Part shown: positions 8,058-59,014 of the stretch, in pieces
Position numbering within the stretch: the first letter of the stretch is position 1
How the letters are laid out: each line of letters opens with the position of its first letter
Assembly: GCA_009797885.1 (NCBI GenBank)
Contig: WNKP01000001.1
Location: forward strand, 124,001-188,000
From: Flavobacteriaceae bacterium GF1
GTDB taxonomy: Bacteria; Bacteroidota; Bacteroidia; Flavobacteriales; Flavobacteriaceae
DNA length: 64,000 nt
Direction: 5' to 3'
Made by a program: the position numbers and the translations under genes
The notes under the pieces: model-generated
Told to the model about the DNA's origin: nothing
Database searches by the model: none
What the model saw: only the letters and a program-made list of their open reading frames with translations

Positions 8058-9274
8058 TCTTCCCAAAATTCAGGTACCACATTACTGCCCAAGGCCGTAC
8101 AATCCCCACAGGCTCTGGTGACCAATATATACGGACTGTTTTCATCCCCTGTCGCCTCCACATACTTTTGCCCCAAAGCATTTATCGCCTGGACAAGGGG
8201 TGACGGGCCATCCGGGCCATCGGGAAGCAAATTGGGGGTAAATTCCTCGCTACAGTCACTTTCATAGGGCGGTAAAGGCTCGCCCGGAAAAAAATCCTCA
8301 TAATCAAAAAAAAGTCTTCTTGTCGTTACGGAAGATACCTGAAAGAAACCCAAAACCTTTTCAGATTCATTTTCCAGGGAGAAGATATTCCCTTCCAAAA
8401 AACCCGGTTGTACTTGTGAAAACAAGCTTTCCGTCTGTGATGAAAATTCATCCAAAGTTTCATAAAAGGCAAATGCATCCCTTGACTGTACAAACTGTTT
8501 AACAAGAATACTGTACCGATGGGAAATGATAAAGTTATCCTTTCGTATAAATCGCACTGGAAAACGGGTCAGCCCGTCTTGGCTCGAATCTTCAGTATCC
8601 GACAGGATAATGGTATTTGAGGGTACCGTGTTGTAACAAACACGCTGTTCTTCCGTTTTGGGTTCAAGAATCACAATGGGGGGCCTGGGGCGATCTCGCA
8701 CCACAACGGCATCCACGGCAACCCATCTGGGCGCAATGATTTTGTAGGTCTCTTCATACTCGAACCTAAAAAACCGGGCATCGGTTCCAAGGGGCCTATT
8801 GTCCAGGAATATCCCAATGCCTTCCTGCCCATTGGAATTCTCCCCTACCGAAGCATACAAATCAAGAATTTCGGATTCCGGGGTCAAGGAAGAAGCCCGG
8901 GAACCATAGGTTCGTCCATCCGAGGTTTCCACGGTCAATTCATAGGCCCTTCCCGGCAATGCCCTAAAAGGTTCCGTGGACAGATATGTACCGGGTTCCA
9001 CCTCTTCAAAAGCATAGTTGCCCTGTTGATCATCGGTTATTCGCACGACGGCGGAAGATTCCGGGGTAGGGCCGTCCTCTTCCAACCGAAAGGTCCGCGA
9101 CACGAGCACTTGCTGCCTTTTCTCTTCATTGGTTATCGTGGCTTCAACGATCAGGGCACTTTCAAATATCTCAGTTTCGGGTTCAAATTCTTCAACGCAG
9201 GAGTTTGCTATGATTGCAGACATAAAAACCCAACAGCCTTTTTTTATACTTCCTATGGTGGTGCCTACATCCAT
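8054..9274 (-). CDS. DUF4249 domain lipoprotein
   Basis: A 406-residue lipoprotein with its lipidated Cys at residue 26 (AIIANSC) and the DUF4249 signature: a short N-terminal beta domain with LIVEATITNEEKRQQVLVSR, followed by LPGRAYELTVETSDGRTY. The C-terminal region is Cys-rich (DCSEEF, TRACGDC). The gene starts 4 bp after the TonB receptor ends and overlaps the next gene by 4 bp. DUF4249 lipoproteins regularly partner TonB receptors lacking a SusD, so it may act as an outer-membrane accessory or capture lipoprotein (inference). Confidence 0.75.
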   Translation of the reverse strand: MDVGTTIGSIKKGCWVFMSAIIANSCVEEFEPETEIFESALIVEATITNEEKRQQVLVSRTFRLEEDGPTPESSAVVRITDDQQGNYAFEEVEPGTYLSTEPFRALPGRAYELTVETSDGRTYGSRASSLTPESEILDLYASVGENSNGQEGIGIFLDNRPLGTDARFFRFEYEETYKIIAPRWVAVDAVVVRDRPRPPIVILEPKTEEQRVCYNTVPSNTIILSDTEDSSQDGLTRFPVRFIRKDNFIISHRYSILVKQFVQSRDAFAFYETLDEFSSQTESLFSQVQPGFLEGNIFSLENESEKVLGFFQVSSVTTRRLFFDYEDFFPGEPLPPYESDCSEEFTPNLLPDGPDGPSPLVQAINALGQKYVEATGDENSPYILVTRACGDCTALGSNVVPEFWEE

Positions 9275-9277
9275 GGT

Positions 9278-12049
9278 TCAAAATTTGAAATTATAGGTTA
9301 TGGATGGAATGGGTATGGCAAAAATTGAACTTTGCAATGCTTTCACCTCCCCGTTATCAGTAAGAAAAAAAACGGAATAGGGGTTATTCCTTCCCAATAC
9401 ATTATAGACGGATATGGTCCAAAAGCTATGGGCAAACTTCTTTATTTTGTGGTTCCCTTCAATATTCAACCCAATATCGAGCCTATAGTAATCTGGAATC
9501 CTAAACTCATTTCGATTGCTGAAGAAAACAAATTCCGAGTTATTGAAATTGAATGAACCCACCGGAAAAGTAATCGGTCTTCCCGTTTGGTACACAAAAT
9601 TTGTCGATAAGCTGAACCTTCTGGTAAGCTTATAGTTGGCCACTAGACTCAGGTCGTGGGGCCTATCAAAATTAGATGGGAAAAAGTCCCCGTCATTTAT
9701 TCTTTCTTCCCTAAATGGGCTGTCGAACCTGAGAAAAGACCTTGAATAGGTGTACCCCAACCATCCATTGAGTTTTCCGCGGTTTTTTCTCATTAATACC
9801 TCAATACCGTAGGCCTCTCCTTCCCCTTGCAGTATTTCGGTTTCTATTTCTTCGTTCAAAAGCAATTCCGCACCTGTCTTAAAGTCCAGGACATTAGTTG
9901 TGGTCTTGTAATAGCCTTCAAGGCTGAGTTCGTACATATCTTCCTGTAAATTCTTGTACACCCCAATGGAATATTGATATCCCTGTGCCGGTTCAATATT
10001 GAGATCGGAAAGTTTCCAGGTATCTATAGGGGAAACCGTAGTGGTATTGGAAAGGGTATGGATGTATTGAAAAGTGTTGTTGAAACTTGCTTTAATGGAT
10101 AGGTCAGGTGCCAATAAATACCGGGCCGCCAGTCTAAATTCAGGTCCGCCGTAGGTAGTGATGAAATCGTTTCTGTCAAACTCCCGCTCTTCAATCAATG
10201 TTCCTTCACTCCTGGGTTGGCCTTCTTCATAGATTCTTTGGGTAGATGGTCCCAAGGCTGAAAAAATGGAAAATCGCACTCCGGCATCTATAAGGAGTTT
10301 ATCATTCACCTTAAAATTATCGGAAATGTATATGGCCGATTCCAAACCCTTTTCCCTGGGAATTTCAAGGGGCGTAACGGTTGATTCATTGTTCAGGGGG
10401 TTTCGTCTTCCCGGATCCACCAAATACAGTTTTGAAGAGAGGCCGTAGTTCAGTGTATGTTTATCATTGGGAATATGGACAAAATTCAATTTTGCTTCCG
10501 TTTCGTTGATGGTATATCCCAAATCAAAGTCTTCGTTGGAGTTCCCATCAAATTCAATTTCGAAATCATATTGACTGTTCGAAAAAATGAGTTGCCCCTT
10601 GGTTTTTTCATTGATGCGGCGATCCCAGCGCAAGGAGACCATTCTGTTTCCAAACCCAAATAGGGAATCCGAAGTGATACTGAAATTGTCCCTACTGTAA
10701 TAGGCCGTCCCACTTAGGGTATTGTTCCCATCGAGTTTATGGGTGTATTTGGCAATGAAATCATAAAAGGATGCTTCACTGTTACGTAGGGATTCATCAT
10801 CCAAAGATCGTAGTATCCAATCGGAATAGGTTCCCCTGGCCCCCAGGAGAAAAGAGGCCTTATCCTTGATTACCGGTGTTTCCACCACCACATTGCTGGT
10901 TACCGGTCCTATGGAGGCTTCTGCGGAAAGTGCCGAAGTATTTCCATCTTCCGTGGTAATATCAAATACCGATGACAATCGACCCCCAAAACGCGCCGGG
11001 ATATTCCCTTTATAAATAACAGCATCTTTGACCGCAAAAGGGTTCAATGCCTGAAAAATCCCAAAAAAATGGGTGGGATTGTAAATGACGGCCCCATCGA
11101 GCAGAATTAAATTTTGGTCCGTGTTTCCCCCACGAACATTGAATCCTGCTGCCCCTTCCCCTGCCGTGGTGATTCCCGGCAAGGTCGTTGCAACCTTAAG
11201 CACATCCCGTTCGCCCAATACAAGCGGAATATTTTTGGTCTCTTCGGAAAGTATTTGGTTTGCACCAGTGGTTGCATCTTCCACATTGGTGCGGGCCAAA
11301 CCCTCAACAACCACTTCTTCCAATTGCTCCACGTTCTCCTCGAGCACAAAGTCATAACGGCCGTCATTGAACATGACAATGATGTTTTCCGTATCCTTAA
11401 AACCCAAGGATTTTGTTAGGACACTATTTTTGCCATACGGCAGCCTAATTTCATAATAGCCCTTTTCGTTGGTAACAACACCACCACGCCCTCCTTTTAT
11501 GAATATTGCCAGATCGGTTATGGGTTCTCCCGTTGTACCCGCCCTGGCATAACCTTGGAGCTTCAATAACTCGTCCCTGCGGTTTTGATTTGCTTTTCCA
11601 ATCCTTATCGTTTTTACTTTTGAAGCCCTGTTTACCTTTTCTAGATTTAGAAAAATTGGATTCACCTCATTTCGCGATGGAATCTCCACATTAGAACCTG
11701 AACTATCCGGGGTCCTTCCAAAAAAGCCGTCCGGAAGTTCATTATAAATGATTTGATTGCGAATCAAATATATCTTTCTGTTGGGCCCAAAATGATACTG
11801 GATATCGGTTTTACCAAAAATATGATCCAATACCTCCAAAATATTAACCCCTATAAAATCCCCTGATATCGTATCCGAACCCAACCAATCCTCTGCATAA
11901 AAAAACTGGTAGTCCGTTTGTTCCTCTATCATGGGGATAACCTTGGCAATAGGTTCATCAGTAAAGGAAATGGATAATTTTACCCCGTCTTCCTGACCTA
12001 CGACCGTAAGTGGACTTAAGAGCAATATGATAAGACAAAATCTACTCAT
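9278..12049 (-). CDS. TonB-dependent receptor with N-terminal STN domain
   Basis: A 923-residue outer-membrane receptor. In order: signal peptide (residues 1-19, LSPLTVVGQ), a secretin/TonB short N-terminal domain (about 25-100, PIAKVIPMIEEQTDYQFFYA), a carboxypeptidase regulatory-like domain (about 163-245, GRGGVVTNEKGYYEIRLPYG), a plug domain (about 255-370, GFNVRGGNTDQNLILLDGA) and a beta-barrel ending in an aromatic residue (TYNFKF). STN domains usually signal to FecR/FecI pairs, but none is present here. Its ATG overlaps the stop of the upstream gene by 4 bp. It lacks an adjacent SusD, so it is probably not a glycan importer; the ligand is unknown. Confidence 0.85.
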   Translation of the reverse strand: MSRFCLIILLLSPLTVVGQEDGVKLSISFTDEPIAKVIPMIEEQTDYQFFYAEDWLGSDTISGDFIGVNILEVLDHIFGKTDIQYHFGPNRKIYLIRNQIIYNELPDGFFGRTPDSSGSNVEIPSRNEVNPIFLNLEKVNRASKVKTIRIGKANQNRRDELLKLQGYARAGTTGEPITDLAIFIKGGRGGVVTNEKGYYEIRLPYGKNSVLTKSLGFKDTENIIVMFNDGRYDFVLEENVEQLEEVVVEGLARTNVEDATTGANQILSEETKNIPLVLGERDVLKVATTLPGITTAGEGAAGFNVRGGNTDQNLILLDGAVIYNPTHFFGIFQALNPFAVKDAVIYKGNIPARFGGRLSSVFDITTEDGNTSALSAEASIGPVTSNVVVETPVIKDKASFLLGARGTYSDWILRSLDDESLRNSEASFYDFIAKYTHKLDGNNTLSGTAYYSRDNFSITSDSLFGFGNRMVSLRWDRRINEKTKGQLIFSNSQYDFEIEFDGNSNEDFDLGYTINETEAKLNFVHIPNDKHTLNYGLSSKLYLVDPGRRNPLNNESTVTPLEIPREKGLESAIYISDNFKVNDKLLIDAGVRFSIFSALGPSTQRIYEEGQPRSEGTLIEEREFDRNDFITTYGGPEFRLAARYLLAPDLSIKASFNNTFQYIHTLSNTTTVSPIDTWKLSDLNIEPAQGYQYSIGVYKNLQEDMYELSLEGYYKTTTNVLDFKTGAELLLNEEIETEILQGEGEAYGIEVLMRKNRGKLNGWLGYTYSRSFLRFDSPFREERINDGDFFPSNFDRPHDLSLVANYKLTRRFSLSTNFVYQTGRPITFPVGSFNFNNSEFVFFSNRNEFRIPDYYRLDIGLNIEGNHKIKKFAHSFWTISVYNVLGRNNPYSVFFLTDNGEVKALQSSIFAIPIPSITYNFKF

Positions 12050-13051: not shown

Positions 13052-13720
13052 TCAGTTCCTTACTTTTTGGATGATCGCCAAGGTGTTCCTTACCAAATTT
13101 TCAAGCTTTTGAAAATCCTTGCTGGCCAAAATCTCCTTGCTGATCAGCTTTGATCCCATACCCACGCAGGTCACGCCGGCTTCAAACCAGGCCCTCAAAT
13201 TGTCTTCCTCCGTGCTTACGCCACCCGTGGGCATAATGCTGGTCCATGGTTGTGGCCCTTTTATCGCCTTGACAAAACCCGGGCCATAGGTTGAACCGGG
13301 AAAAAGTTTAACGATTTCACAGCCCATCTCCTCAGCCTTGTTGATTTCGGTCAACGATCCACAACCGGGCGACCAAAGCACTTTTCTTCGGTTACATACC
13401 ATAGCAATGTCTTCACGCAATGATGGGGTTACCACAAAATTTGCTCCCATTTGCAGGAACAGCGAGGCCGCTCCGGCATCCGTAATGGAGCCTACACCCA
13501 TTACCATTCCCGGTAATTCGGCAATGGCATAGTGGTTCAATTCCGAAAAGACTTCAAAGGCAAAGTCGCCCCGAGCCGTGAATTCCATTAATCGTGCGCC
13601 ACCATCGTAACAGGCTTTGAGCACTTTTTTTCCCAATTCCACATCGGGATGGTAGAAAAGGGGCACCATTCCGGTACCCCTCATGATATTTGCTACTTCA
13701 ATTCTTGAATATTGTGCCAT
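13052..13720 (-). CDS. eda: KDPG / 4-hydroxy-2-oxoglutarate aldolase
   Basis: A 222-residue class I aldolase. It splits 2-keto-3-deoxy-6-phosphogluconate into pyruvate and glyceraldehyde-3-phosphate, the last step of alginate monomer breakdown. Lys138 in CEIVKLFPG is the expected Schiff-base residue and Glu46 in LMEFTARG the general acid/base. The glycine-rich phosphate site (MPTGGVS) is intact. It begins 8 bp after the KDG kinase gene ends, so the two are co-transcribed. Cytoplasmic. Length and motifs are normal for the family. Confidence 0.93.
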   Translation of the reverse strand: MAQYSRIEVANIMRGTGMVPLFYHPDVELGKKVLKACYDGGARLMEFTARGDFAFEVFSELNHYAIAELPGMVMGVGSITDAGAASLFLQMGANFVVTPSLREDIAMVCNRRKVLWSPGCGSLTEINKAEEMGCEIVKLFPGSTYGPGFVKAIKGPQPWTSIMPTGGVSTEEDNLRAWFEAGVTCVGMGSKLISKEILASKDFQKLENLVRNTLAIIQKVRN

Positions 13721-13727
13721 AGTAAAA

Positions 13728-14768
13728 TTATCTAGCTACCCTTCCGGAGGCGTCGCCACCCATTAATTTTTCAACTTCCGGGACCGTGACCAGGTTGGCA
13801 TCCCCTTTGATGGTGTGTTTTAAGCAGGAAGCGGCCACAGCAAAATTCAAAGCGTTCTGATCATCTTCAGGATAGTTGAGCAATCCATAGATCAACCCGC
13901 CCATAAACGAATCACCACCGCCCACGCGATCCACAATATGGGTGATTTGATATTCTGGGGACTTGTACATGGTCTTCCCATCATAAAGCACTCCGGCCCA
14001 CGTGTTATGGGATGCCGATAGGGAGCCCCTTAATGTGGTGATTACCTTTTTAGCCCTGGGAAACCGCTTCATCATTTGTTGGCAAACCGAAAGAAAAGCT
14101 TCCGCTTTAACGTGTTCGCCCTGGGTGGTAATGTCCAGACCTTCCGGTTGTATCCCAAAGTGTTTTTCGGCATCTTCCTCATTGCCCAAAACGATATCGC
14201 AGTAGGAGGTCAATTCGGACATGATCGCTTCCCTGTCCCCTCCATACTTCCAAAGTTTGGCACGATAGTTTAAATCGGTGGAAATGGTTACCCCCATTTC
14301 GCTGGCCGTTTGTACCGCTTCCAGACAGGCATCCGCGGCACCTTGTGAAATTGCCGGTGTAATCCCGGTCCAATGGAACCATTCGACCTCATCAAAAACC
14401 GATTTCCAGTCAATCATGCCCTTTTCAATTTCGGACATCGCGGAATGGGCACGGTCATAAACCACTTTACTCCCCCTGGATACCGCTCCGGTTTCCAAAA
14501 AATAAATGCCCAACCGATTCCCTCCAAAAATCATTTTATCGGTACCCACGCCCCTTTTACGCATTTCCATAAGGGCGCAATGGCCAATGTCATTGTCCGG
14601 TAGCCTTGTCACAAAATCCACCGGTACTCCATAATTGGCCAAAGAAACGGCAACATTGGATTCACCACCACCATAGACGACATCGAAGGTATTGGTCTGT
14701 GAAAATCTTAAAAATCCCGGAGGTGCCAAACGAAGCATAATTTCCCCGAAAGTGACTACTTTTTTCAT
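13728..14768 (-). CDS. kdgK: 2-keto-3-deoxygluconate kinase (PfkB family)
   Basis: A 346-residue ribokinase-family enzyme phosphorylating KDG to KDPG with ATP. The PfkB marks are all present: GGGESNVAVSLA near 33-44, the metal-linked NxxE motif N196-E-E-D, and catalytic Asp286 in RVGGGDSF. Residues matching the KDG contacts of known enzymes are Tyr89, Tyr104, Arg106 and Arg169 (in DLNYR). It lies between the DEH reductase gene and the aldolase gene, in pathway order. A second paralog at 36513-37517 differs at NxxE. This copy should be the working kinase. Confidence 0.92.
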   Translation of the reverse strand: MKKVVTFGEIMLRLAPPGFLRFSQTNTFDVVYGGGESNVAVSLANYGVPVDFVTRLPDNDIGHCALMEMRKRGVGTDKMIFGGNRLGIYFLETGAVSRGSKVVYDRAHSAMSEIEKGMIDWKSVFDEVEWFHWTGITPAISQGAADACLEAVQTASEMGVTISTDLNYRAKLWKYGGDREAIMSELTSYCDIVLGNEEDAEKHFGIQPEGLDITTQGEHVKAEAFLSVCQQMMKRFPRAKKVITTLRGSLSASHNTWAGVLYDGKTMYKSPEYQITHIVDRVGGGDSFMGGLIYGLLNYPEDDQNALNFAVAASCLKHTIKGDANLVTVPEVEKLMGGDASGRVAR

Positions 14769-14918: not shown

Positions 14919-15683
14919 TTAGATGCCCAAACCTTGTCCACCCCCTACTTGAATCGTTTCTGCGGTCAAGAAAGCGGCATCATCACTGACCAAAAAGGAA
15001 ATAACGGAGGCCACTTCTTCCGGCTGTCCCAATCGTCCCAACAAAATATTGTTCTTCCAGGAAGCAAAAACTTCCGGTTTGGTGGATTTGATCTGGGTAT
15101 GGAAAGGGGTATCAATGGTCCCCGGTGACACTGCGTTCACCCGAATACCATATTCTGCAAGGTCTTTTGCCAATGCCCTCGTAATGGCATGCACTGCAGC
15201 TTTGGAGGTTCCGTAAATACCGGCACCGGGCCCTCCGGCATTCCATCCGGCGATTGAGGTATAATTGATGATTGAGGCATTTTCCCCTTTTTTAAGGAAA
15301 GGGATCGCTGCCCTGGAGGCAAAGAATGTTGAATCAAGGTTCAGTGCCATGACCCCCCGGTAAAATTCAGTGGTCATTTCCTCAAATCGGGATCTTCCTC
15401 CCAAACCTCCTGCATTATTGATAAGGGCGTCCACCTTGCCGTATTTTTCCCCAATGGTATTGATGTTGGAAGTCACGGCGTCCTCATCGGTAACGTCAAA
15501 ACCGTAATACTCGGCGGTGATGCCTTCTGCGGTCAGTTCCTTTACCCGTTGGGCCCCAGCTTCATCTTCTATACCATTCAAAATTACAGTGTATCCGTCC
15601 TTACCAAGCCTTTTCGCTACTTGAAAGCCAATACCTCCCGTAGCACCTGTAATCACGGCAACTTTTCCGTTTAAATCACTCAT
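14919..15683 (-). CDS. SDR oxidoreductase, probable DEH reductase
   Basis: A 254-residue short-chain dehydrogenase. The cofactor motif TGATGGIG, the NNAG motif and the Ser-Tyr-Lys triad (YTS... GIYGTSK) are intact. In alginate loci an SDR at this position reduces 4-deoxy-L-erythro-5-hexoseulose uronate (DEH) to 2-keto-3-deoxygluconate with NAD(P)H; the assignment rests on context between the uronate permease and kdgK. A family-general SDR with another substrate cannot be excluded from sequence. The C-terminal VGGGQGLGI is usual for SDRs that end in a cofactor-side loop. About 150 bp without a gene separate it from kdgK. Confidence 0.8.
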   Translation of the reverse strand: MSDLNGKVAVITGATGGIGFQVAKRLGKDGYTVILNGIEDEAGAQRVKELTAEGITAEYYGFDVTDEDAVTSNINTIGEKYGKVDALINNAGGLGGRSRFEEMTTEFYRGVMALNLDSTFFASRAAIPFLKKGENASIINYTSIAGWNAGGPGAGIYGTSKAAVHAITRALAKDLAEYGIRVNAVSPGTIDTPFHTQIKSTKPEVFASWKNNILLGRLGQPEEVASVISFLVSDDAAFLTAETIQVGGGQGLGI

Positions 15684-17229: not shown

Positions 17230-17940
17230 TTATTCTTTTGTGTTGTAACAATATTGATATAGCACTTTAAAATGTGCTTTCATTTTTTCTTTTGCCTTTT
17301 GTGGCTCCTGATCCTTAATGGCCTCGTAAATATCCTCATGCTCCTGTATTCCGTTAAAGGACAAATTGGCGTCACAGACATGGTATTTTTCGAAATTGGT
17401 GATAATCTCCGGTGTTATAATCAGCATGAACGTATTCATGGTACTGTTCTTACTGGCCTGGGCAATGGCCAAATGAAACAATAGATCCTCCTCCACGGCC
17501 TTTTCCCCATTTAACACCTTAGCTGTATAGGCATCCAAAGCGGCCCGCATTTTTTCCAAATCCTGTTCGGTCCTTCTTAGGGATGCTAAACGCACCGTTT
17601 TTAGTTCGAGCAGTATTCTGGTCTCCACAAGCGATTTAAAATCCGGATCCTCCAGGCGTAGGATTTCATCCAACATGCCACTCATGGCCACCCTACCAAT
17701 ATTTGCAATAAAGGTTCCACTTTGCGGTCGGGATTTAAGTATTCCGAAGAATTCCAATTTCTGAATGGCTTCCCTTATACTGCTGCGACTCACTTCAAAT
17801 CGTTCGGACAACATACGTTCCGAGGGCAATTTGTCCCCAGGCTCAAGGTTTTTGTATTCGATGTAGTCCCTGAGCTTGGAAATAATTCCCTGTTGGATAT
17901 TTCTATTGCTGTCGTTTTTGGTTAAAATTTCTATTTTCAT
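17230..17940 (-). CDS. GntR/FadR-family regulator of the alginate locus
   Basis: A 236-residue regulator with a winged-helix DNA-binding domain (about 12-80, KLPSERMLSERFEVSRSSIREA) and an FCD ligand-binding domain (about 95-230, with the metal-linked DLLFHLAIAQASKN helix). The gene starts 10 bp from a run of TGGTTAACCA-type half-sites (17950-17987), pointing to autoregulation. The same sites lie before both susC genes and between the divergent lyase and RraA genes, so it probably represses the whole locus and responds to a uronate or KDG-type acid (inference). It shares orientation with the MFS-SDR genes downstream. Confidence 0.88.
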   Translation of the reverse strand: MKIEILTKNDSNRNIQQGIISKLRDYIEYKNLEPGDKLPSERMLSERFEVSRSSIREAIQKLEFFGILKSRPQSGTFIANIGRVAMSGMLDEILRLEDPDFKSLVETRILLELKTVRLASLRRTEQDLEKMRAALDAYTAKVLNGEKAVEEDLLFHLAIAQASKNSTMNTFMLIITPEIITNFEKYHVCDANLSFNGIQEHEDIYEAIKDQEPQKAKEKMKAHFKVLYQYCYNTKE

Positions 17941-17949
17941 ATTTTTTGT

Positions 17950-17987
17950 GCAACCAGATTGGTTAACCAGATTGGTTTGTTAAATTT
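17950..17987. promoter_or_regulatory. GntR operator before gntR
   Basis: On the minus strand, AACAAACCAATCTGGTTAAC followed by CAATCTGGTTG: a perfect TGGTTAACCA palindrome flanked by extra AACCAATC half-sites. It sits directly against the gntR start, overlapping the likely promoter (TAAATTTA). Shared with sites at 22907, 33010 and 35671. Confidence 0.75.
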
Positions 17988-33161: not shown

Positions 33162-33512
33162 TTACGATTGCATGAAATCTTCCCGGATCGGACTAAAAAC
33201 ATCAATTAAAACCCCGGGCTTTTTACAAATTGCACCATGAAGGACATGAGGCGGAATGTAAAATGCATCCCCACCCTTCATCATTTTGGTCTCGTCACCA
33301 ATGGTAAGTTCAAATTCCCCACTTTCCACATAGGTAACTTGGGAATGGTAATGCTCATGCATTGGGCCAACACCGCCCTCATCAAAATGTACTTTGACCA
33401 GCATTATCTTATCGTCATAACCCATTATTTTTCTTTTGACACCTTCTCCGACAACTTCCCACTCAATGTCATCCCCCATTAAAAATTCTTTGCTTGATCC
33501 AAATGTTTTCAT
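33162..33512 (-). CDS. kdgF: KdgF-like cupin, unsaturated uronate linearisation
   Basis: A 116-residue single-domain cupin. KdgF enzymes speed the conversion of 4,5-unsaturated monouronates released by lyases into linear keto forms leading to DEH. Expected metal ligands are His52, His54, Gln58 (MHEHYHSQ) and His92 (PPHVLHGA). Length is normal and no signal peptide is seen, so it is cytoplasmic. It lies 54 bp after the two-domain lyase gene, probably in one transcript from the divergent promoter at 35.7 kb. A relic of its 3' end lies near 23.1 kb. Confidence 0.9.
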   Translation of the reverse strand: MKTFGSSKEFLMGDDIEWEVVGEGVKRKIMGYDDKIMLVKVHFDEGGVGPMHEHYHSQVTYVESGEFELTIGDETKMMKGGDAFYIPPHVLHGAICKKPGVLIDVFSPIREDFMQS

Positions 33513-33566: not shown

Positions 33567-35666
33567 TTACTTGGGCGGCGTACCGGGCCCTACTGTCCCC
33601 GCTCTAAACCACACTTCCGTATAACAACCATTTTCATATTGTTTGGCGATATCACCGTTATAGGTATCTGCCCCGGTACACCAGACCATATTGATTTCAG
33701 GATCTTTTCCGTTGGTTTGATTGTAGGCTCCCTGCTTGAAATAATTTAATTCCCCCGCATAGGCATAGGCCCGTTCCGTACCGTCTTGTCCTATGGGCAC
33801 AAACAATCGCTTCACCTGTGTTGGCAGGTCCGTTTTTTTCGTGTATTCGGATGCGATAAGGTTTTTGGTAAATGTCTTGGTTTCGTGATTCTCACTTTTA
33901 AAGGTGAGGTACATGATCCCCTGATAAACATTTACTTCGTAGCTGAATTCCTCCCCTAATTCTATTCCATCCACTGGCTCTGCAGGATACTCATTTTTGC
34001 CCGTTCCAGTGACGGACATATCATGTCCCCATACGGCAGTTGAGTAATCCCACCTTCCTGAATTATCGTCGCCTTCGGTATTGATTTCATAATTCCAAAA
34101 GACCGATCCCTTCGTATGGCCAGGGAACTTCTTATAAAATATTTTTAGCGGTTCATTTTCATGACCTTCACCGCTATGGATCTGCCCAACCACGGTAGAA
34201 TAAGAAGCTGCAACCCTGGCATCACCGGAGATGGAGACTTGCATGACTTTACAGGTTCCCGTTAGTTTACCCCCTTGTTCAGGCGTCCATTCCCTTTTTT
34301 CCTGCAGCTCTGTTCTGGTGTTGCTGGAGTTTTTTGAGGTGACTCCAGAATTTGGTGTTTTGTATACCACCCAACGTCTGGTCCCATCAATTACGGTATA
34401 AAAAAAGTCTTTATGTTCGAACTTGGTAAGGTCATCCACATTGGTTCCGTCCCCCATTAATATTTTAAACTTATCCATAAAGGGAATGACCTCATGGGGG
34501 TAAACCGTTTTTTCACTTAAACCGTCATTTGCCTCAAAATACCCTGCATTCGAAATGGCATCATCACTGACCGAAATACTTGCTGTTTTAAACCAAACTT
34601 CGGCATAATTGCCATCCGCATATTGTTTTTGAATATCACCGCCGTGGGTTTCCGCACCGGAACACCACACTTTATTTACCTTAGGGTCCTTTCCATTGGT
34701 TTGATTATAAGACCCCAATTTAAAAAAGAGCCCTTCATTAGCATACGCATTTTCACGCTCCAGGCCATCTTGACCTATGGGCACAAACAATCTCTTGACT
34801 TGTTCTGGTATGCTTGACTGTTCCACATATTCAGAAGAAACAAGGTTTTTGGTAAATGTTTTGGTTTCATGCCCTTCACTGGTAAATGTGAGATACATGA
34901 TTCCGTCTTTGATTTCCACTTCATAACTGAACTCTTCTCCCAAGGCAATTCCATCTTTTGGTTCAGGTGGATACGTGTTTTCACCCGTTCCGACAACGGA
35001 AAAGTCATAGCCCCAAATGGGATAGGAATAATCCCATCTACGTGAGTTATCATCGCCTGCAGTATTGATTTCATAATTCCAAAAGACCGATCCTTTTTCA
35101 TGGCCCGGAAACTTCTTATAAAATACTTTCAAGGGTTCATTTTCATGTCCATCAGCACTATGAATTTGACCCACAACCACGGCGTAGGTCGCTGCAACCC
35201 GGGCATCGCCCGTGCTTGCCACATTCATGACTTTAAGTGTGGCATTCATTTTAGCTTCACTCATTGGCGACCACTTTTTCAATTGTGCCAATTCAGTTCT
35301 TGTGTTGTTTGAAGTACCATGGGTATTCCCCGCATTAGGTGTCTTAAACACTACCCAATTGGCCTTCCCGTCTTTAGCGGTATAAAAGAAATCCTTGTTC
35401 TCATAGTCCGTGGCCTGACCCACATTGGAACCGTCCCCCAAAATCAAATTCCAATGCTGGAAAAATGGTATGATATCATTGGCATTGTTTGCTACAGCCG
35501 TTGTTTCGGTGCGCTCTACGCCCTTCTTATTTTTGGTTTCAGTACAGCCGTTCAACAAAAAAATTGCACTTATTATTACTGTACAATGGACGAAAGTTGA
35601 TTTGTCCTTCCATTTTGGAATTGGTAAATGAAAGCCATATGGTAGTGAAGAGAAAAAATTGTTCAT
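33567..35666 (-). CDS. Alginate lyase with two tandem catalytic domains
   Basis: A 699-residue lipoprotein (lipobox FLLNGC, Cys41) with two closely similar lyase domains of the PL7/PL18 jelly-roll type, about 65-362 and 388-690. Domain 1 has R123-T-E-L-A, Q167-I-H and FFKLGSYNQTNG; domain 2 has R451-T-E-L-Q, Q495-I-H and YFKQGAYNQTNG. The second Arg of the usual R-x-E-L-R motif is missing in both, while Gln, His and the last Tyr are kept. The EPLKVFYKKFPGHEKGSV segment recalls PL18. A paired Cys (VWC) appears in each. Whether it is PL7 or PL18 is open; alginate lyase activity is very likely. Confidence 0.82.
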   Translation of the reverse strand: MNNFFSSLPYGFHLPIPKWKDKSTFVHCTVIISAIFLLNGCTETKNKKGVERTETTAVANNANDIIPFFQHWNLILGDGSNVGQATDYENKDFFYTAKDGKANWVVFKTPNAGNTHGTSNNTRTELAQLKKWSPMSEAKMNATLKVMNVASTGDARVAATYAVVVGQIHSADGHENEPLKVFYKKFPGHEKGSVFWNYEINTAGDDNSRRWDYSYPIWGYDFSVVGTGENTYPPEPKDGIALGEEFSYEVEIKDGIMYLTFTSEGHETKTFTKNLVSSEYVEQSSIPEQVKRLFVPIGQDGLERENAYANEGLFFKLGSYNQTNGKDPKVNKVWCSGAETHGGDIQKQYADGNYAEVWFKTASISVSDDAISNAGYFEANDGLSEKTVYPHEVIPFMDKFKILMGDGTNVDDLTKFEHKDFFYTVIDGTRRWVVYKTPNSGVTSKNSSNTRTELQEKREWTPEQGGKLTGTCKVMQVSISGDARVAASYSTVVGQIHSGEGHENEPLKIFYKKFPGHTKGSVFWNYEINTEGDDNSGRWDYSTAVWGHDMSVTGTGKNEYPAEPVDGIELGEEFSYEVNVYQGIMYLTFKSENHETKTFTKNLIASEYTKKTDLPTQVKRLFVPIGQDGTERAYAYAGELNYFKQGAYNQTNGKDPEINMVWCTGADTYNGDIAKQYENGCYTEVWFRAGTVGPGTPPK

Positions 35667-35670
35667 TTCA

Positions 35671-35712
35671 AATTGGTTTACCAGATTGGTTTACCAAATA
35701 TATGTATATTTG
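35671..35712. promoter_or_regulatory. Divergent promoters with GntR operator
   Basis: AATTGGTTTACCAGATTGGT followed by TTACCAAATATATG: two TTGGTTTACCA units. A -7 element TATATTTG faces right at 35705-35712 (toward the RraA gene at 35774) and another faces left at 35703-35696 (toward the lyase gene at 35666). One repressor site could thus control both operons. Confidence 0.75.
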
Positions 35713-35773
35713 TATACTTGGCAAAAATTTAACACCAAAATTACCTGCATTCCATATTACAAGTTCAAAATAC

Positions 35774-36493
35774 ATGGCAAACACCTTATCCACTCCAGAA
35801 AAGTTTAAGCAGATCAGCACTGCCACAATCGCCACCTGCCTTTTTAAAAAAGGGTTACGCAATCAATGTATTCAAAATGTGCGTCCATTGACATCAAAAA
35901 AAATGGTTGGGGAGGCCTTTACGCTACGGTATATTCCCGCCAGGGAAGACCTTAATCCCATTGCGGTGTTCAAAGACCCTGAACATCCACAGCGGGTTGC
36001 CATTGAGCAATGCCCCAAAAATAGGGTACTGGTCATCGATAGTAGAAAAGACGCCCGAGCGGCTTCGGCAGGTTCCATTCTTATTACCCGACTGATGAAA
36101 AGGGGAGCAGCTGGTGTGGTAACCGATGGGGGGTTTCGGGATTCCGAGGAAATCGCAGCACTTGATTTCCCTTCCTATCACCAAAGGCCATCTGCTCCAA
36201 CAAATCTGACACTGCACCAGGCCATTGCAATCAATGAACCCATAGGCTGCGGTGATGTGGCCGTTTTTCCCAGGGACTACATTGTTGGTGATGCGGATGG
36301 TGTAGTGGTAATCCCGGCATCCATTGCAGATGAGGTAGCGGAGGAATGTCTGCACATGACCTTGTTTGAAGAATTTGTAATGGAAAAAATCAATCAAGGA
36401 CAATCAATCCTTGGTCTCTATCCCCCCACCGATCCACAAACTTTAAAGGCATTCGAGGCATGGGAAAAGAACAATACAACTAAAGTCCCCTAA
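35774..36493 (+). CDS. RraA-family aldolase-like protein
   Basis: From the ATG at 35774 the product has 239 residues and matches the RraA/HMG-aldolase fold throughout: GAAGVVTDGGFRDSEEI (111-127) and VFPRDYIVGDADGVVVIP. Arg122 and Asp123 correspond to the substrate and metal residues of HMG/CHA aldolases. The acidic residue expected 21 positions before the Arg (D-x20-R-D) is Ser101 here, so this is a variant subfamily. Upstream frame extension passes through the operator and is rejected. Function is unknown; a retro-aldol or decarboxylation step on a keto acid is plausible. First gene of a three-gene operon sharing the alginate operator. Confidence 0.75.
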   Translation: MANTLSTPEKFKQISTATIATCLFKKGLRNQCIQNVRPLTSKKMVGEAFTLRYIPAREDLNPIAVFKDPEHPQRVAIEQCPKNRVLVIDSRKDARAASAGSILITRLMKRGAAGVVTDGGFRDSEEIAALDFPSYHQRPSAPTNLTLHQAIAINEPIGCGDVAVFPRDYIVGDADGVVVIPASIADEVAEECLHMTLFEEFVMEKINQGQSILGLYPPTDPQTLKAFEAWEKNNTTKVP

Positions 36494-36512
36494 ATTTTAT
36501 GAAAGACACAGT

Positions 36513-37517
36513 ATGGCTAAAAAAGTAATCACATTTGGTGAGGTAATGATGCGTTTGTCCCCACCCGGCTATTCCAAATTTTCGCAGGCTACCTCTTTTG
36601 AACTGGTTTATGGAGGTGGAGAGGCAAACGTCGCCATTTCATTGGCCTATTTGGGTATTAAAGCGGCCCACGTAACACGTTTTCCGGATAATGCCCTGGG
36701 TAGGGCAGCCACCCAATTTTTACGTCAGCATTGGTTAAGCACCGAACACGTTTTTTACGGTGGGAATATGTTGGGCAAGTATTTTTTGGAAAAAGGTGCC
36801 GTACACAGGCCCAGTGAAGTGATTTATGAAAGGGAGGGTTCTTCCTTTTCCTTAATAGAACCGTCAATGGTCAATTGGGCACACGTACTCAAAGACGCCG
36901 ATTGGTTCCATTGGACGGGCATTACCCCAGCCATTTCGGAAGGGGCCAAAATGTGTTGCTTGGATGCCATTAAAACAGCAAACCGTATGGGAATACCTGT
37001 TTCGGGGGATATTAATTCCCGCAGTAACATGTGGAAATATGGGGAAACCATGCAAGAGGTCATGCCAGAGCTGGTACAAAACTGTGATATTGTGATTACC
37101 AGTCGCCGTGGTATCCATGACATGTTTGGGCTTGGTGAATCGGGGGGGAAATTTCGGAATTCCGCTAGGCTCCTTATGGAAACCTTTCCCAGAATTAAGA
37201 AAGTGGTTGGGAAAACCAGGAAATCCATAAGTGCTTCCCATCAACAAATACAGGGAAAAATGTGGAACGGTGAAGCGTATGTCAAGACTGAAATGCTTAA
37301 CATTACCCATGTCATTGATCGCGTTGGTACCGGGGATGCTTTTGCCTCAGGCCTGATCTACGGATTATTGCATTATGATGATGACATCCAAGCGTTGAAT
37401 TTTGCTTCGGCCGCTTGTGCCCTAAAGCATACCGTTCCCGGTGATGTAAATATGGTGTCTTTGGAAAATGTGGTAAGTTTAATGCATGGGGACACCTCCG
37501 GGGCAATAAAAAGATAA
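36513..37517 (+). CDS. KDG-kinase-like PfkB paralog lacking NxxE motif
   Basis: A 334-residue PfkB protein, clearly paralogous to the KDG kinase at 13728-14768. Residues matching KDG contacts are kept (Tyr90, Tyr105, Arg107, Arg170), as is catalytic Asp275 in RVGTGDAF. However, the segment equal to GNEEDAEKHF reads TSRRGIHDMF (196-205), so the NxxE metal motif is gone, and DLNYR has become DINSR. It may use another substrate or metal geometry, or be a regulatory non-catalytic sensor. It lies 19 bp after the RraA gene, in one operon with the BASS transporter. Confidence 0.85.
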   Translation: MAKKVITFGEVMMRLSPPGYSKFSQATSFELVYGGGEANVAISLAYLGIKAAHVTRFPDNALGRAATQFLRQHWLSTEHVFYGGNMLGKYFLEKGAVHRPSEVIYEREGSSFSLIEPSMVNWAHVLKDADWFHWTGITPAISEGAKMCCLDAIKTANRMGIPVSGDINSRSNMWKYGETMQEVMPELVQNCDIVITSRRGIHDMFGLGESGGKFRNSARLLMETFPRIKKVVGKTRKSISASHQQIQGKMWNGEAYVKTEMLNITHVIDRVGTGDAFASGLIYGLLHYDDDIQALNFASAACALKHTVPGDVNMVSLENVVSLMHGDTSGAIKR

Positions 37518-37568
37518 GCTTTAAAGCCAACTTGAAATACAAATAGTATCCAATCTTAACTATTAAAA

Positions 37569-38678
37569 ATGAACTTAATCGGAAAATGGGCAGCAATAGT
37601 GGGTGCATTTTTAGCACTTGGCATTCTACTGTTTTGGTATCTGGGAATGTATGATTATTTGGCACCGACCGTAATCACTTTTTTTTCCGCTTTGGCATTG
37701 GCCGTTAACGGAACTAAAAAGTTCAAGGGGTTCTCCTTCACCTTACTGATCTTCGCCGCCGTTGCAGCGGCCATGTTCTATCCCCAATTCTTTTTGGAAG
37801 TAGGTTCCTTTAAATTAAGTCGGTTGATTGTCCCCCTGCTCATTATCATCATGTTCGGCATGGGCACTTCCATGGGCGTTACTGATTTTGTGGGGGTAAT
37901 CAAAATGCCCAAGGGCGTAATCGTAGGCCTCATTGCCCAATTTACCCTTATGCCGTTTATCGGGTTTGGATTGGCAAGACTCTCAGGGCTCCCTCCGGAA
38001 ATTGCCGCAGGTATTATTCTTGTGGGTTGCTCTCCCGGTGGCCTGGCTTCCAACGTTATGGCCTATATTTCAGGGGCCAATTTGGCCCTTTCCCTGACCC
38101 TGACCGCGGTATCCACCTTATTGTCCCCCCTCCTAACCCCTTTTTTCATGAAACTTCTGGCAAACGAACTTGTTCCAATCGACTTTCTGGAAATGTTCTG
38201 GAGCATTATCAAAATTGTGATCCTTCCCATATTGGCCGGTCTTATATTCAATCACTTCGCCCACGGCAAGTTCAAATGGTTGGATAGGGCGATGCCAAAA
38301 ATCTCAATGGCAGCCATTGCGATTATTATTACCATTATTACCGCTTCTGGAAGGGATTCCCTTTTGTCCATTGGCATTATATTGATCATGGTCGTATTGG
38401 TCCATAATTTTTCCGGTTACCTCTTGGGTTATTATGGAAGCAAATTGGTTGGACTTGATGAGAGATCTTCCAGGACGGTGGCTTTTGAAGTCGGTATGCA
38501 AAACTCGGGGCTGGCTTCAGGTATTGCCCTGGAAATGGGGCGACTCGCCACCATGGGTTTGGCTCCGGCCGTTTTTGGTCCACTAATGAACATTTCCGGT
38601 TCATCGCTGGCCACTATTTGGCAGGGAAAGAATAAAAATGTTCCGGCCGAGGATACCCGGCAAGTTGAGTCCCTATGA
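37569..38678 (+). CDS. BASS-family (bile acid:sodium symporter-like) transporter
   Basis: A 369-residue inner-membrane protein with about ten membrane spans. The family marks GCSPGGLASNVMAY (about 149-162) and EVGMQNSGLASG (about 314-325), which form the sodium and substrate crossover, are intact. BASS proteins belong to the BART superfamily, as does the KDG permease KdgT, and some move keto acids such as pyruvate. Given the operon with an RraA-like protein and a KDG-kinase paralog, a keto-deoxy acid substrate is inferred. The N-terminus holds two extra spans before the core. Confidence 0.85.
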   Translation: MNLIGKWAAIVGAFLALGILLFWYLGMYDYLAPTVITFFSALALAVNGTKKFKGFSFTLLIFAAVAAAMFYPQFFLEVGSFKLSRLIVPLLIIIMFGMGTSMGVTDFVGVIKMPKGVIVGLIAQFTLMPFIGFGLARLSGLPPEIAAGIILVGCSPGGLASNVMAYISGANLALSLTLTAVSTLLSPLLTPFFMKLLANELVPIDFLEMFWSIIKIVILPILAGLIFNHFAHGKFKWLDRAMPKISMAAIAIIITIITASGRDSLLSIGIILIMVVLVHNFSGYLLGYYGSKLVGLDERSSRTVAFEVGMQNSGLASGIALEMGRLATMGLAPAVFGPLMNISGSSLATIWQGKNKNVPAEDTRQVESL

Positions 38679-57119: not shown

Positions 57120-59014
57120 CTTTTTTGGTGTACCAGTACTGTAGCTCCCTTTCCATTCATCTGCATAACGGCCCCAAGGGTCTGCGAAGTCCCGGTCACA
57201 ACATTTGTAAATGTTTTGCCCGCAATATCCATTTCGGCAAAGCGATTGAGATCTAAGGCGATGGGTCCATTGTTCTTGTTCAAAATGAGCATGGTAATTT
57301 GATCCGCATCATACCTAAAGAGCGCATACACCCCATCGTAGGGCGCAAAATGTTTGGTATTCCCCGAATGTATGGCGGAGCTCGTTTTCCGGAAGTTCAG
57401 TAACTTCTTCATAAAATCCTGCATTCCCTTTTGGTCTTCGGTCAATCCTTCTCCCGAAAAGGCGTTTACGGTATCCCCGGTCCATCCGCCTGGAAAATCG
57501 GTCCTAATGAGGCCATGATCTCCAGGTTTGGCCGAATTCTGCATTAAGATTTCAGTACCATAATACACCTGTGGAATCCTTGGTGCCGTTAATACAAAGG
57601 CCATTGCCATTTGGGTCAGGGCAACTTCCTCATTCATTTGGGTATGGACACGATCCATATCGTGATTGTCCCCAAAAAGCATAATGGAACTTGGATTGGC
57701 ATAGTGAAAATCATTGGCCAATGCGGTATAGAGCTTTACCAAGCCTTTACCCCATTCCTTTTCAGACTCTTTAAAGGCGGCTGCAAAAGTGGTCTGTATG
57801 GGAAAATCCATGGTTGTGGGCAGATAGGAACGATAACCATCCCTGTTTTTTGCCCCATCTTGCCAATAGCCCACCAAAAGTGGGTTGTCACTCCATTCCT
57901 CTCCTACAATGTTGAAGTTGGGATACTCGCGCATGATATCCTTGGCCCATTGTGCCATGAAGTTTTTATCGGGATAGGGGTAGGTGTCCTGTCTAATGCC
58001 ACCCAGCTTCAACGTTTCAATCCACCAAATACTGTTCTGGATAATATATTTGGCCATAAACGGATTCCTTTGGTTGAGGTCGGGCATGGCCGATACAAAC
58101 CATCCGCCGCTCATTAAGTTCCTGTCGTAGTCCGCGGCATAGGCATCCTGATTGACGGTCCTTTTGTGATTGGACGTTTTTAAAGGCAACCCTTGCTCAT
58201 AATCTTCCTGGAAATTCAACCAATCCCCAAAGGGCAGGTCATCCATCCACCAGTGTTTACTGCCACAATGGTTGGCCACTTGGTCCATGATTAGTTTTAT
58301 GCCCATATCCGCCGCCTTGTTGGAGAGTTCGATATATTCCTCCATAGTCCCAAATCTGGGATCTACCTGATAAAAATCGGTAATGGCATAGCCGTGATAG
58401 GATGATCGGGGCATGTCATTTGTGAGCAATGGGCAAGACCAAATTGCCGTAAAGCCCATATCTCCGATATAATCCAAATGGTCTATGATACCCCGGATAT
58501 CCCCACCATGACGCCCATAATCCTCGTTCCTATCAACTTCGGTTTCACGCATACCCCTCACCACATCATTTTTGGGGTCACCGTTGGCAAAACGGTCGGG
58601 AGTAATGAGATAAATAGCATCGGAACTATCAAATCCCCCAAAATCTTGAGGCTTCTGCACTCGTTGTCCCAACTCATAGGAAAACGAATAAGCCTTTCCT
58701 TTTTTGGGTTTGAACTCAATATCAAAGGTCCCGGCCTCCGCATCCCTGGCGATGACCAAATCCAGGAAAAGGTAATTTGGACTATCGCCCTTTGAAGCCC
58801 TGATTAATCGAATTCCCTCTTTTTGGATAAAGGGCACATGGGTACCTATTTCCTTTCCCTTTACCAAAAGTTGAAGGGTATCCTGTTCAAATCCCACCCA
58901 CCAATTGGGTGGCTCTACACGTTCTATCTGGCTTTGTACCAAACAGGACAAGGACAAAAACACAAGACAGGCCAACTGTCTGCTCCGGTAGAACAAATTA
59001 AAGCTATGATACAT
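57116..59014 (-). CDS. GH13 neopullulanase/cyclomaltodextrinase-like enzyme
   Basis: A 632-residue exported enzyme (signal CLVFLSLSCLVQSQ). An N-terminal Ig-like cyclomaltodextrinase domain (about 30-115, EPPNWWVGFEQDTLQLLVKG) precedes the GH13 barrel with Asp343 (GGIRQDTYPY), Glu372 (IVGEEW) and Asp452 (FGDNHDMDR). The layout matches SusA-type periplasmic neopullulanases. It overlaps the GH65 gene by 11 bp and the next GH13 gene by 4 bp, so the three form one operon. Confidence 0.92.
   Translation of the reverse strand: MYHSFNLFYRSRQLACLVFLSLSCLVQSQIERVEPPNWWVGFEQDTLQLLVKGKEIGTHVPFIQKEGIRLIRASKGDSPNYLFLDLVIARDAEAGTFDIEFKPKKGKAYSFSYELGQRVQKPQDFGGFDSSDAIYLITPDRFANGDPKNDVVRGMRETEVDRNEDYGRHGGDIRGIIDHLDYIGDMGFTAIWSCPLLTNDMPRSSYHGYAITDFYQVDPRFGTMEEYIELSNKAADMGIKLIMDQVANHCGSKHWWMDDLPFGDWLNFQEDYEQGLPLKTSNHKRTVNQDAYAADYDRNLMSGGWFVSAMPDLNQRNPFMAKYIIQNSIWWIETLKLGGIRQDTYPYPDKNFMAQWAKDIMREYPNFNIVGEEWSDNPLLVGYWQDGAKNRDGYRSYLPTTMDFPIQTTFAAAFKESEKEWGKGLVKLYTALANDFHYANPSSIMLFGDNHDMDRVHTQMNEEVALTQMAMAFVLTAPRIPQVYYGTEILMQNSAKPGDHGLIRTDFPGGWTGDTVNAFSGEGLTEDQKGMQDFMKKLLNFRKTSSAIHSGNTKHFAPYDGVYALFRYDADQITMLILNKNNGPIALDLNRFAEMDIAGKTFTNVVTGTSQTLGAVMQMNGKGATVLVHQKR

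Follow-up and report, generated by a model that had tools for sequence, protein, structure and literature searches.

A probable accessory operon of the alginate regulon in Flavobacteriaceae bacterium GF1, encoding an FlDet-like RraA protein, a KDG-kinase paralog with an altered metal motif and a BASS-family transporter

The window analyzed here is a 64,000-nucleotide stretch (contig WNKP01000001.1, positions 124,001 to 188,000) from the 5.28 Mb genome of Flavobacteriaceae bacterium GF1, and its subject is a run of three genes encoding an RraA-like protein, a PfkB-family paralog of 2-keto-3-deoxygluconate (KDG) kinase, denoted KIN2, and a BASS-family transporter. These genes appear to form, within the alginate regulon, an operon with an accessory metabolic role, an interpretation to which we assign a probability of about 0.6. 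The BASS protein would import a keto acid made from alginate. The RraA-like protein would dehydrate and decarboxylate 2-keto-3-deoxy-glucarate (KDGR) to alpha-ketoglutaric semialdehyde (KGSA), from which a KGSA dehydrogenase (KGSADH) would yield alpha-ketoglutarate, by analogy with the chemistry established for the enzyme FlDet and its partner. KIN2, in which the donor/metal site is rebuilt (NxxE gone at both ends, Lys234 gained), would act as a second, inducible KDG kinase of the reductive branch and supply substrate to Eda, the aldolase of the main alginate cluster. As the conserved sites suggest, a GntR repressor acting on tandem TTGGTNNACCA sites would induce the triplet together with the lyases. 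The features concerned are the following:

35673..35697, unstranded: tandem operator with two TTGGTTTACCA sites, shared with other alginate promoters of the window
35774..36493, + strand: RraA-like gene, putative FlDet-type KDGR dehydratase/decarboxylase (from NF006093, the published FlDet peptide and the neighborhood)
36513..37517, + strand: KIN2, PfkB/KDG-kinase paralog with DINSR, TSRRG replacing NxxE, Lys234 and GTGD
37569..38678, + strand: BASS-family (SBF) transporter, probable keto-acid/KDG permease (from Pfam SBF and homologs beside KdgK)

All three genes are intact, and the intergenic gaps of about 20 and 50 bp suggest a single operon. The original prediction of three same-strand genes behind a divergent promoter is thus borne out; its span, 35671-38678, is correct for the plus-strand genes, with the refinement that it starts within the promoter, translation of RraA being taken to begin at 35774. 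Among the matches listed, from which very near records may be left out, the closest is a Croceivirga metagenome-assembled genome with a 99% identical KIN2.

The RraA-like protein and the shared operator

FlDet of the alginate-using Flavobacterium sp. UMI-01 converts KDGR, the oxidized form of the alginate monomer 4-deoxy-L-erythro-5-hexoseulose uronate (DEH, also DEHU), to KGSA by dehydration and decarboxylation; its description states that it accepted KDGR alone among the keto acids tested, refusing DEHU, KDG, 2-keto-3-deoxy-6-phosphogluconate (KDPG) and 4-hydroxy-2-oxoglutarate, that it was detected only in alginate-grown cells, that it is 63-80% identical to RraA-like proteins of other alginate users, and that its gene, fldet, adjoins the KGSADH gene fldeg (PMC8563752, Nishiyama et al. 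2021). The window RraA-like protein matches NF006093 with 332.6 bits (cut-off 208), and 12 of the 14 positions of the published FlDet peptide LVMDSRKDPRAASA are identical in it (compared by eye; the comparison is with this peptide, and the membership of FlDet itself in NF006093 lies outside the profile test). Strong relatives are present in 24 of the 299 family genomes, the window's own included, and those of the 23 other genomes show 66-76% identity. An alginate-lyase-type gene or KdgF is found near RraA in 22 of these 23 loci (in one of them, L133, the evidence is only a 44% PL17 relative), and the sole locus with no alginate neighbor, L132, contains a heparinase-like gene. Given the subfamily assignment, the peptide and the alginate neighborhood, the RraA part of the operon is best explained by the published chemistry; that is, the protein looks like an FlDet ortholog, and its enzyme type and pathway are already known. 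By analogy, this chemistry supports the original suggestion of a side route of DEH/KDG metabolism.

Aldolases of the HMG/CHA type, which share the RraA fold, carry the motif D/E-x20-R-D. The fold and the pair Arg122-Asp123 would fit an aldolase of this type or an oxaloacetate decarboxylase, but Ser101 replaces the acidic residue of the motif, the three residues being those noted originally. All 24 flavobacterial rows have Ser101, which is therefore a signature of the group rather than the mark of a damaged aldolase; at this position, D, N or C is found in some relatives from Alphaproteobacteria. Furthermore, the protein falls far below the cut-offs of two aldolase models (85.4 vs 179 and 72.9 vs 304.5 bits). 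Considering also that the activity measured in this group, that of the relative FlDet, is KDGR dehydration/decarboxylation and that no other keto acid tested was accepted (PMC8563752), an aldolase or oxaloacetate decarboxylase function is very improbable, and the proposed retro-aldol activity finds no backing.

Control by an alginate operator, which was also proposed originally, is supported both within the window and across genomes. The two TTGGTTTACCA copies, at 35673 and 35686, lie between the RraA gene and the divergent PL7-PL7 gene (start 35666, minus strand), as originally noted. Across the window, TTGGTNNACCA has 12 matches on both strands, with some palindromic sites thus counted twice, vs 1.27 expected, and 0 of 100 shuffles reached 12. 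Three pairs have centers exactly 13 bp apart: two precede the first and the second SusC gene (22917/22930 and 33020/33033, respectively), and the third, 35678/35691, lies in the promoter considered here; a single site (start 17959, center 17964) lies just before the gene of a GntR/FCD regulator, which is the probable owner of the operator. These three pairs and the single site make up the shared operator of a putative alginate GntR (AusR-like) regulon. Two more sites, with starts at 57125 and 59809 (centers 57130 and 59814), are within reading frames, the former at the very end of one frame and beside the start of the next, and are taken as chance matches. What we take to be a TAnnTTTG-like promoter element, read by eye, follows the tandem operator at about 35705-35712.

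Among the relatives, 20 of the 23 loci carry an operator site in the 2.5 kb that precede RraA, at 54-114 bp in eight, at about 1.05-1.2 kb in 11 and at 2 kb in one; no site was detected in L121, L132 and L133. In most loci with a far operator (~1.05-2 kb), a xylose-isomerase-like gene sits between. A pair of sites 12-14 bp apart occurs somewhere in 17 of the 23 loci, with a spacing of 13 bp wherever a pair of distances was listed; mononucleotide shuffles of the RraA loci gave 0.13 sites per locus and zero pairs. An operator directly upstream of KIN2 was also considered as a general feature and rejected, given that exact TTGGTNNACCAA occurs within 400 bp upstream of KIN2 in only four of the 67 loci scanned (L053, L055, L093 and L096; three of 70 loci with less than 300 bp of upstream DNA were dropped).

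The xylose-isomerase-like TIM-barrel gene (L059:131-1099 and relatives), whose product has a Tat-like N-terminus, adjoins RraA in 15 of the 23 loci; the window operon lacks it. The RraA family also matches 443 plasmid records; among five alphaproteobacterial ones that were opened, L-arabinonate dehydratase is encoded nearby in four and aldehyde dehydrogenase (ALDH) in three. A Sulfitobacter pontiacus plasmid (L165) contains the run TRAP-RraA-FadR/GntR-cupin-SDR-ALDH, possibly an oxidative DEH route without a kinase.

KIN2, a kinase group with a changed metal motif

The window genome contains four KdgK-like genes, KIN2 among them. A search with KIN2 returned 80 loci, 68 of which have close orthologs (73-99% identity; one partial); compared with canonical Bacteroidota KdgK, the identity is about 47-52%. 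An alignment of 70 rows (the 68 ortholog loci and the window's own place twice) shows that Tyr90, Tyr105, Arg107, Asp166, Asn168, Ser169, Arg170, Gly272, Thr273, Gly274, Asp275 and Asp311 are identical in all rows, so that the GxGD motif is present as GTGD throughout, and that Gly34 is found in 69 rows, with one gap. At the NxxE site, Ser197 is present in 68 rows and Gly200 in 69, residue 199 being Arg in 56; thus, KIN2 has neither NxxE nor the NxxD or SxxE seen in solved relatives. In the thirteen rows of canonical KdgK, the motif begins with Asn and ends with Asp. The alignment confirms the changes from GNEED to TSRRG and from DLNYR to DINSR that had been read from the window sequence, as well as the retention of Tyr90, Tyr105, Arg107, Arg170 and Asp275. 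Altogether, 20 positions separate KIN2 from canonical KdgK at 97% or more, including N197S, D200G, T234K, Y169S and G273T, and the mean net charge of the donor half (from residue 160 on) is +2.9 in KIN2 vs -5.1 in canonical KdgK.

The dN/dS values are 0.02-0.10 in 11 pairs of KIN2 genes, two of them with dS near 2; a twelfth, virtually identical pair is not included. The AlphaFold model of KIN2 has a pLDDT of 89.6 and adopts the fold of KDG kinases, the nearest being 2afb (TM score 0.88-0.90). Given the conservation, the low dN/dS and the fold, KIN2 is a maintained protein rather than a decaying copy. The residues that recognize KDG in FlKin are G34, Y89, Y104, R106, R169, D280 and D317 (PMC5334617); the KIN2 equivalents, G34/G35, Y90, Y105, R107, R170, D275 and D311, retain all seven, the two Asp residues having been mapped by a consistent shift of six residues. 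The intact acceptor site and catalytic base point to KDG phosphorylation, and the simplest reading of the sequence is that KIN2 is an accessory KDG kinase whose donor/metal site has changed.

In a tree of 50 rows, KIN2 (support 99/98) groups with sequences denoted KIN2', the branching order of which stays unresolved. The KIN2' signature is DIHSR or DVHSR with [SG]xxD. These genes are located beside KdgK in L097, L098 and L141, and in the KdgK slot after GntR-MFS-SDR of the alginate operon in L142 and L143, the genomes of which have canonical KdgK elsewhere. In L141, a 6-phosphofructokinase-like gene (by eye; 8945-10165) follows the KIN2'-KdgK pair in the alginate operon. Among the rows listed, loss of both ends of NxxE is typical of the KIN2 group, the nearest other case being L107 (SRKN). 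The argument that relatives lacking NxxE serve as sole KDG kinases, and hence that KIN2 does so too, was considered; it is weakened by the Arcicella-type kinases, which have SxxD, and by the solved Thermus thermophilus KDG kinase, which has S-E-E-E at the aligned place, with Ser first.

With regard to the mechanism, we tentatively propose that KIN2 phosphorylates KDG without the Mg2+ that NxxE binds in this family, the metal charge being replaced by the conserved Lys234, mostly together with Arg199; the enzyme would then need little or no divalent metal or take its phosphate from a donor different from ATP, serving as a partner, induced by alginate, to the ordinary enzyme. This proposal is itself rather unlikely, and two other explanations must be weighed with it. 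KIN2 could be a paralog that still binds KDG but has little or no catalytic activity and that regulates canonical KdgK or associates with it, either as a pseudokinase or as a subunit of a hetero-oligomer. The loss of both ends of NxxE, the usual coexistence of KIN2 with KdgK, and the adjacency of KIN2' and KdgK in L097, L098 and L141 are compatible with this view, but all 70 KIN2 rows retain the catalytic Asp275, GTGD and the acceptor residues, and in L142 and L143 the alginate operon has KIN2' alone at the place of KdgK, even if canonical KdgK is encoded elsewhere in these genomes. We regard such a role as rather unlikely but as a serious alternative.

Alternatively, KIN2 might phosphorylate another 2-keto-3-deoxy acid derived from alginate or uronates. 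The 20 group-specific substitutions, which include Tyr169Ser next to the acceptor Arg170, and the UxuA, ManD-like and GntK genes in some KIN2 loci are consistent with a different acceptor. However, the hydroxyl at C6, the group phosphorylated by KdgK, is absent from KDGR and DEH. Moreover, all seven KDG-recognition residues of FlKin are retained, Eda is directly adjacent to KIN2 in three loci, and FlKin did not convert KDGR (PMC8563752). An acceptor other than KDG is likewise rather unlikely but a serious alternative.

An alginate marker is present within the covered DNA of 40 of the 70 loci scanned, which comprise the 68 KIN2 loci and two KIN2' loci. A PL6-type gene directly precedes KIN2 in 27 of the 70 and PL7 directly follows it in 25, with both arrangements in 23. 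Four loci without an alginate marker (L039, L041, L048 and L054) adjoin Eda or a xylose-isomerase-like gene, and in L041, L048 and L054 it is Eda that directly precedes KIN2. Gluconokinase-like genes, some of them fused to 6-phosphogluconate dehydrogenase, recur in alginate loci with KIN2 (e.g., L083:11368-13254 and seven other loci of cluster c10; L086:5127-5627 and cluster c22). Alginate loci of cluster c8 (L064:12006-13280 and 14 others) encode, next to KIN2, proteins of the metal-transporter-like Nramp family, which may carry metal or an organic acid. Two loci that lack alginate genes have a polygalacturonase-like gene (by eye; L047:6266-7807 and L154:4205-5746) shortly before KIN2, hinting that KIN2 may also serve other uronates.

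The transporter, the distribution of the three genes and the locus

The BASS protein contains the SBF domain (PF01758, 146.4 bits, cut-off 24.3) and is strongly similar to solved BASS transporters, with SN and EVGMQNSG stretches that match 3zuy; it falls below the cut-offs of the NCBIfam BASS model TIGR00841 (244.3 vs 326.3 bits) and of the PanS equivalog NF047939 (224.4 vs 400 bits). BASS transporters (ASBT_NM, PanS) and KdgT belong to the BART superfamily. The census yields 44 BASS matches in 39 of the 299 genomes, the window's own included, of which at least seven lie within 2 kb of canonical KdgK, six adjacent and one (L179) separated from it only by Eda; in L179, BASS ends an alginate-type run, GntR-MFS-SDR-KdgK-Eda-BASS. 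Because its homologs recur near ordinary KDG kinase genes, the protein is probably a keto-acid (KDG-like) permease, in agreement with the keto-acid link first suggested for it. In L180-L184, BASS is accompanied by KdgK, Eda, UxuA and an RraA-family-like gene whose product begins with what resembles a signal peptide (supported by BLAST in L180, L182, L183 and L184, and by eye in L181), which suggests that a keto-deoxy acid is formed in the periplasm and then imported by BASS. These five loci represent a second type of uronate locus that also includes SusCD-like genes, a ManD-like gene (with a Tat-like stretch in the two loci translated) and, in four of the five, an FAH-like gene (by eye).

Among the 299 family genomes, KIN2, counted at 75% identity or higher, is present in 22, and an intermediate form (58-61%) in three more. 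PL17 is found in 16 of the 22 KIN2 genomes vs 44 of the 277 others (p=3e-8), RraA in 11 vs 13 (p=3e-8), and BASS (E<=1e-90) in nine vs 30 (p=0.0006), by Fisher tests, which ignore shared ancestry. The links of KIN2 with RraA and with alginate genes are strong, whereas the conserved RraA-kinase-BASS unit envisaged in the original prediction is not seen: the three genes are contiguous in only three of the 68 other KIN2 loci (L032, L056 and L058), and in L057 the triplet is interrupted by TIM-barrel and PL6 genes. The contiguous triplet is a local arrangement. No support was found for the suggested role of the operon in sensing.

The neglect of ancestry in these tests is one of several points that weigh against the proposed accessory operon. 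KIN2 is absent from 13 of the 24 RraA genomes and RraA from 11 of the 22 KIN2 genomes; BASS is the loosest partner, with p=0.02 for its association with RraA and 0.13 with PL17. In 24 of the 68 KIN2 loci, the covered DNA contains no lyase, KdgF, Eda or TIM-barrel neighbor, although three of these (L053, L093 and L096) have the exact operator upstream and L053 also has alginate-type SusCD. A further KdgK match (E<=1e-60) is present in at least 20 of the 22 KIN2 genomes, the others being G129, where fragments of KdgK lie at the ends of contigs, and G066, whose completeness is just 80%; KIN2 thus mostly occurs alongside canonical-type KdgK, and a second ordinary KDG kinase looks redundant. The CSKGD kinases of Arcicella and its kin, whose genes are flanked by those of tagaturonate reductase and Eda in L101 and L102, the two loci opened, are the sole KdgK-like match (E<=1e-40) in all four genomes G299-G302, but they keep the acidic last residue (SxxD) and therefore support tolerance of the change from N to S, not that from D to G. 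The sole KGSADH-like gene of the window genome (E<=1e-40; 48% identical to that of L133) is outside this locus, with proline-racemase-like, D-amino-acid-oxidase-like and DHDPS (dihydrodipicolinate synthase)-like neighbors (by eye), and its surroundings read as a hydroxyproline-degradation cluster; a dedicated KGSADH was accordingly dropped as a candidate, and the final step to alpha-ketoglutarate is plausible in this genome. Finally, the kinase activity of KIN2 and the transport activity of BASS are predictions from sequence.

The rest of the locus comprises two SusCD pairs, PL7 lyases, a KdgF-like cupin, SDR, MFS, GntR, KdgK and Eda, some identified by eye. The complete KdgK-Eda route noted originally is indeed encoded there, at 13052-14768. 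PL17 oligoalginate lyase was not found in the window genome (G000) at E<=1e-100, despite an otherwise rich alginate locus. The individual features are:

13052..13720, - strand: KDPG aldolase Eda (NF005499, 376.4 bits vs cut-off 275)
13728..14768, - strand: canonical KDG kinase KdgK (GNEED)
14919..15683, - strand: SDR, probable DEHU oxidoreductase (FlRed-like reductase/oxidase; from position, family and the FlRed peptide compared by eye)
17230..17940, - strand: GntR/FCD regulator, probable owner of the operator, with its own single site at 17959
33162..33512, - strand: KdgF-like cupin (named by eye from sequence and position; no NCBIfam match)
33567..35666, - strand: double PL7 alginate lyase, divergent from RraA (PF08787, two stretches)

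Comparison with known systems

In the literature searched, the coverage of which was partial, we recognized no description of the KIN2 group or of this BASS protein, and met neither the conservation of operator and neighborhood around RraA nor the altered motif of the KIN2 group; within the gene set, only the KIN2 variant looks new. The observations connect the oxidative route of alginate use, about which little is known, with an operator and a gene neighborhood conserved across Flavobacteriaceae, define sugar-acid kinases that form a group under strong selection but without the metal motif of their family, and provide a candidate substrate class for a group of BASS transporters.

AusR of Zobellia galactanivorans is a GntR-family repressor of alginate genes (Dudek 2020, via PMC8286568, PMC8073546), and the window likewise appears to have a GntR-family repressor over alginate genes; the operator was set beside AusR without the published AusR binding site, so that their identity is not established. 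Compared with ASBT_NM and PanS, the window BASS protein has the SBF fold and the two stretches matching 3zuy, and differs from these proteins and KdgT in its scores below the NCBIfam cut-offs and in its genomic link to KDG kinases.

FlDet and the window RraA-like protein belong to the same family, are similar in length (237 vs 239 amino acids), agree in 12 of 14 peptide residues and have an alginate-lyase neighbor; FlDet is present only on alginate in UMI-01, and the window gene has an alginate-type operator. In contrast, fldet lies beside fldeg, whereas the window gene heads an operon with KIN2 and BASS, away from the only KGSADH-like gene found in the genome.

TM0415, a pyrophosphate-dependent kinase of the ribokinase family, depends on K171 and RXGRGD (PMC5931981). 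KIN2 resembles it in the ribokinase fold and in a rebuilt donor site with extra basic residues, but has RVGTGD and I195 in place of these determinants, and a pyrophosphate-dependent KIN2 was accordingly rejected as a candidate. Together with FlKin, canonical KdgK and TM0067 (2afb), KIN2 shares the fold, the acceptor residues and the GxGD base, and it departs from all three in the change of NEED to TSxRG (S197, G200) and in T234K, Y169S and G273T.

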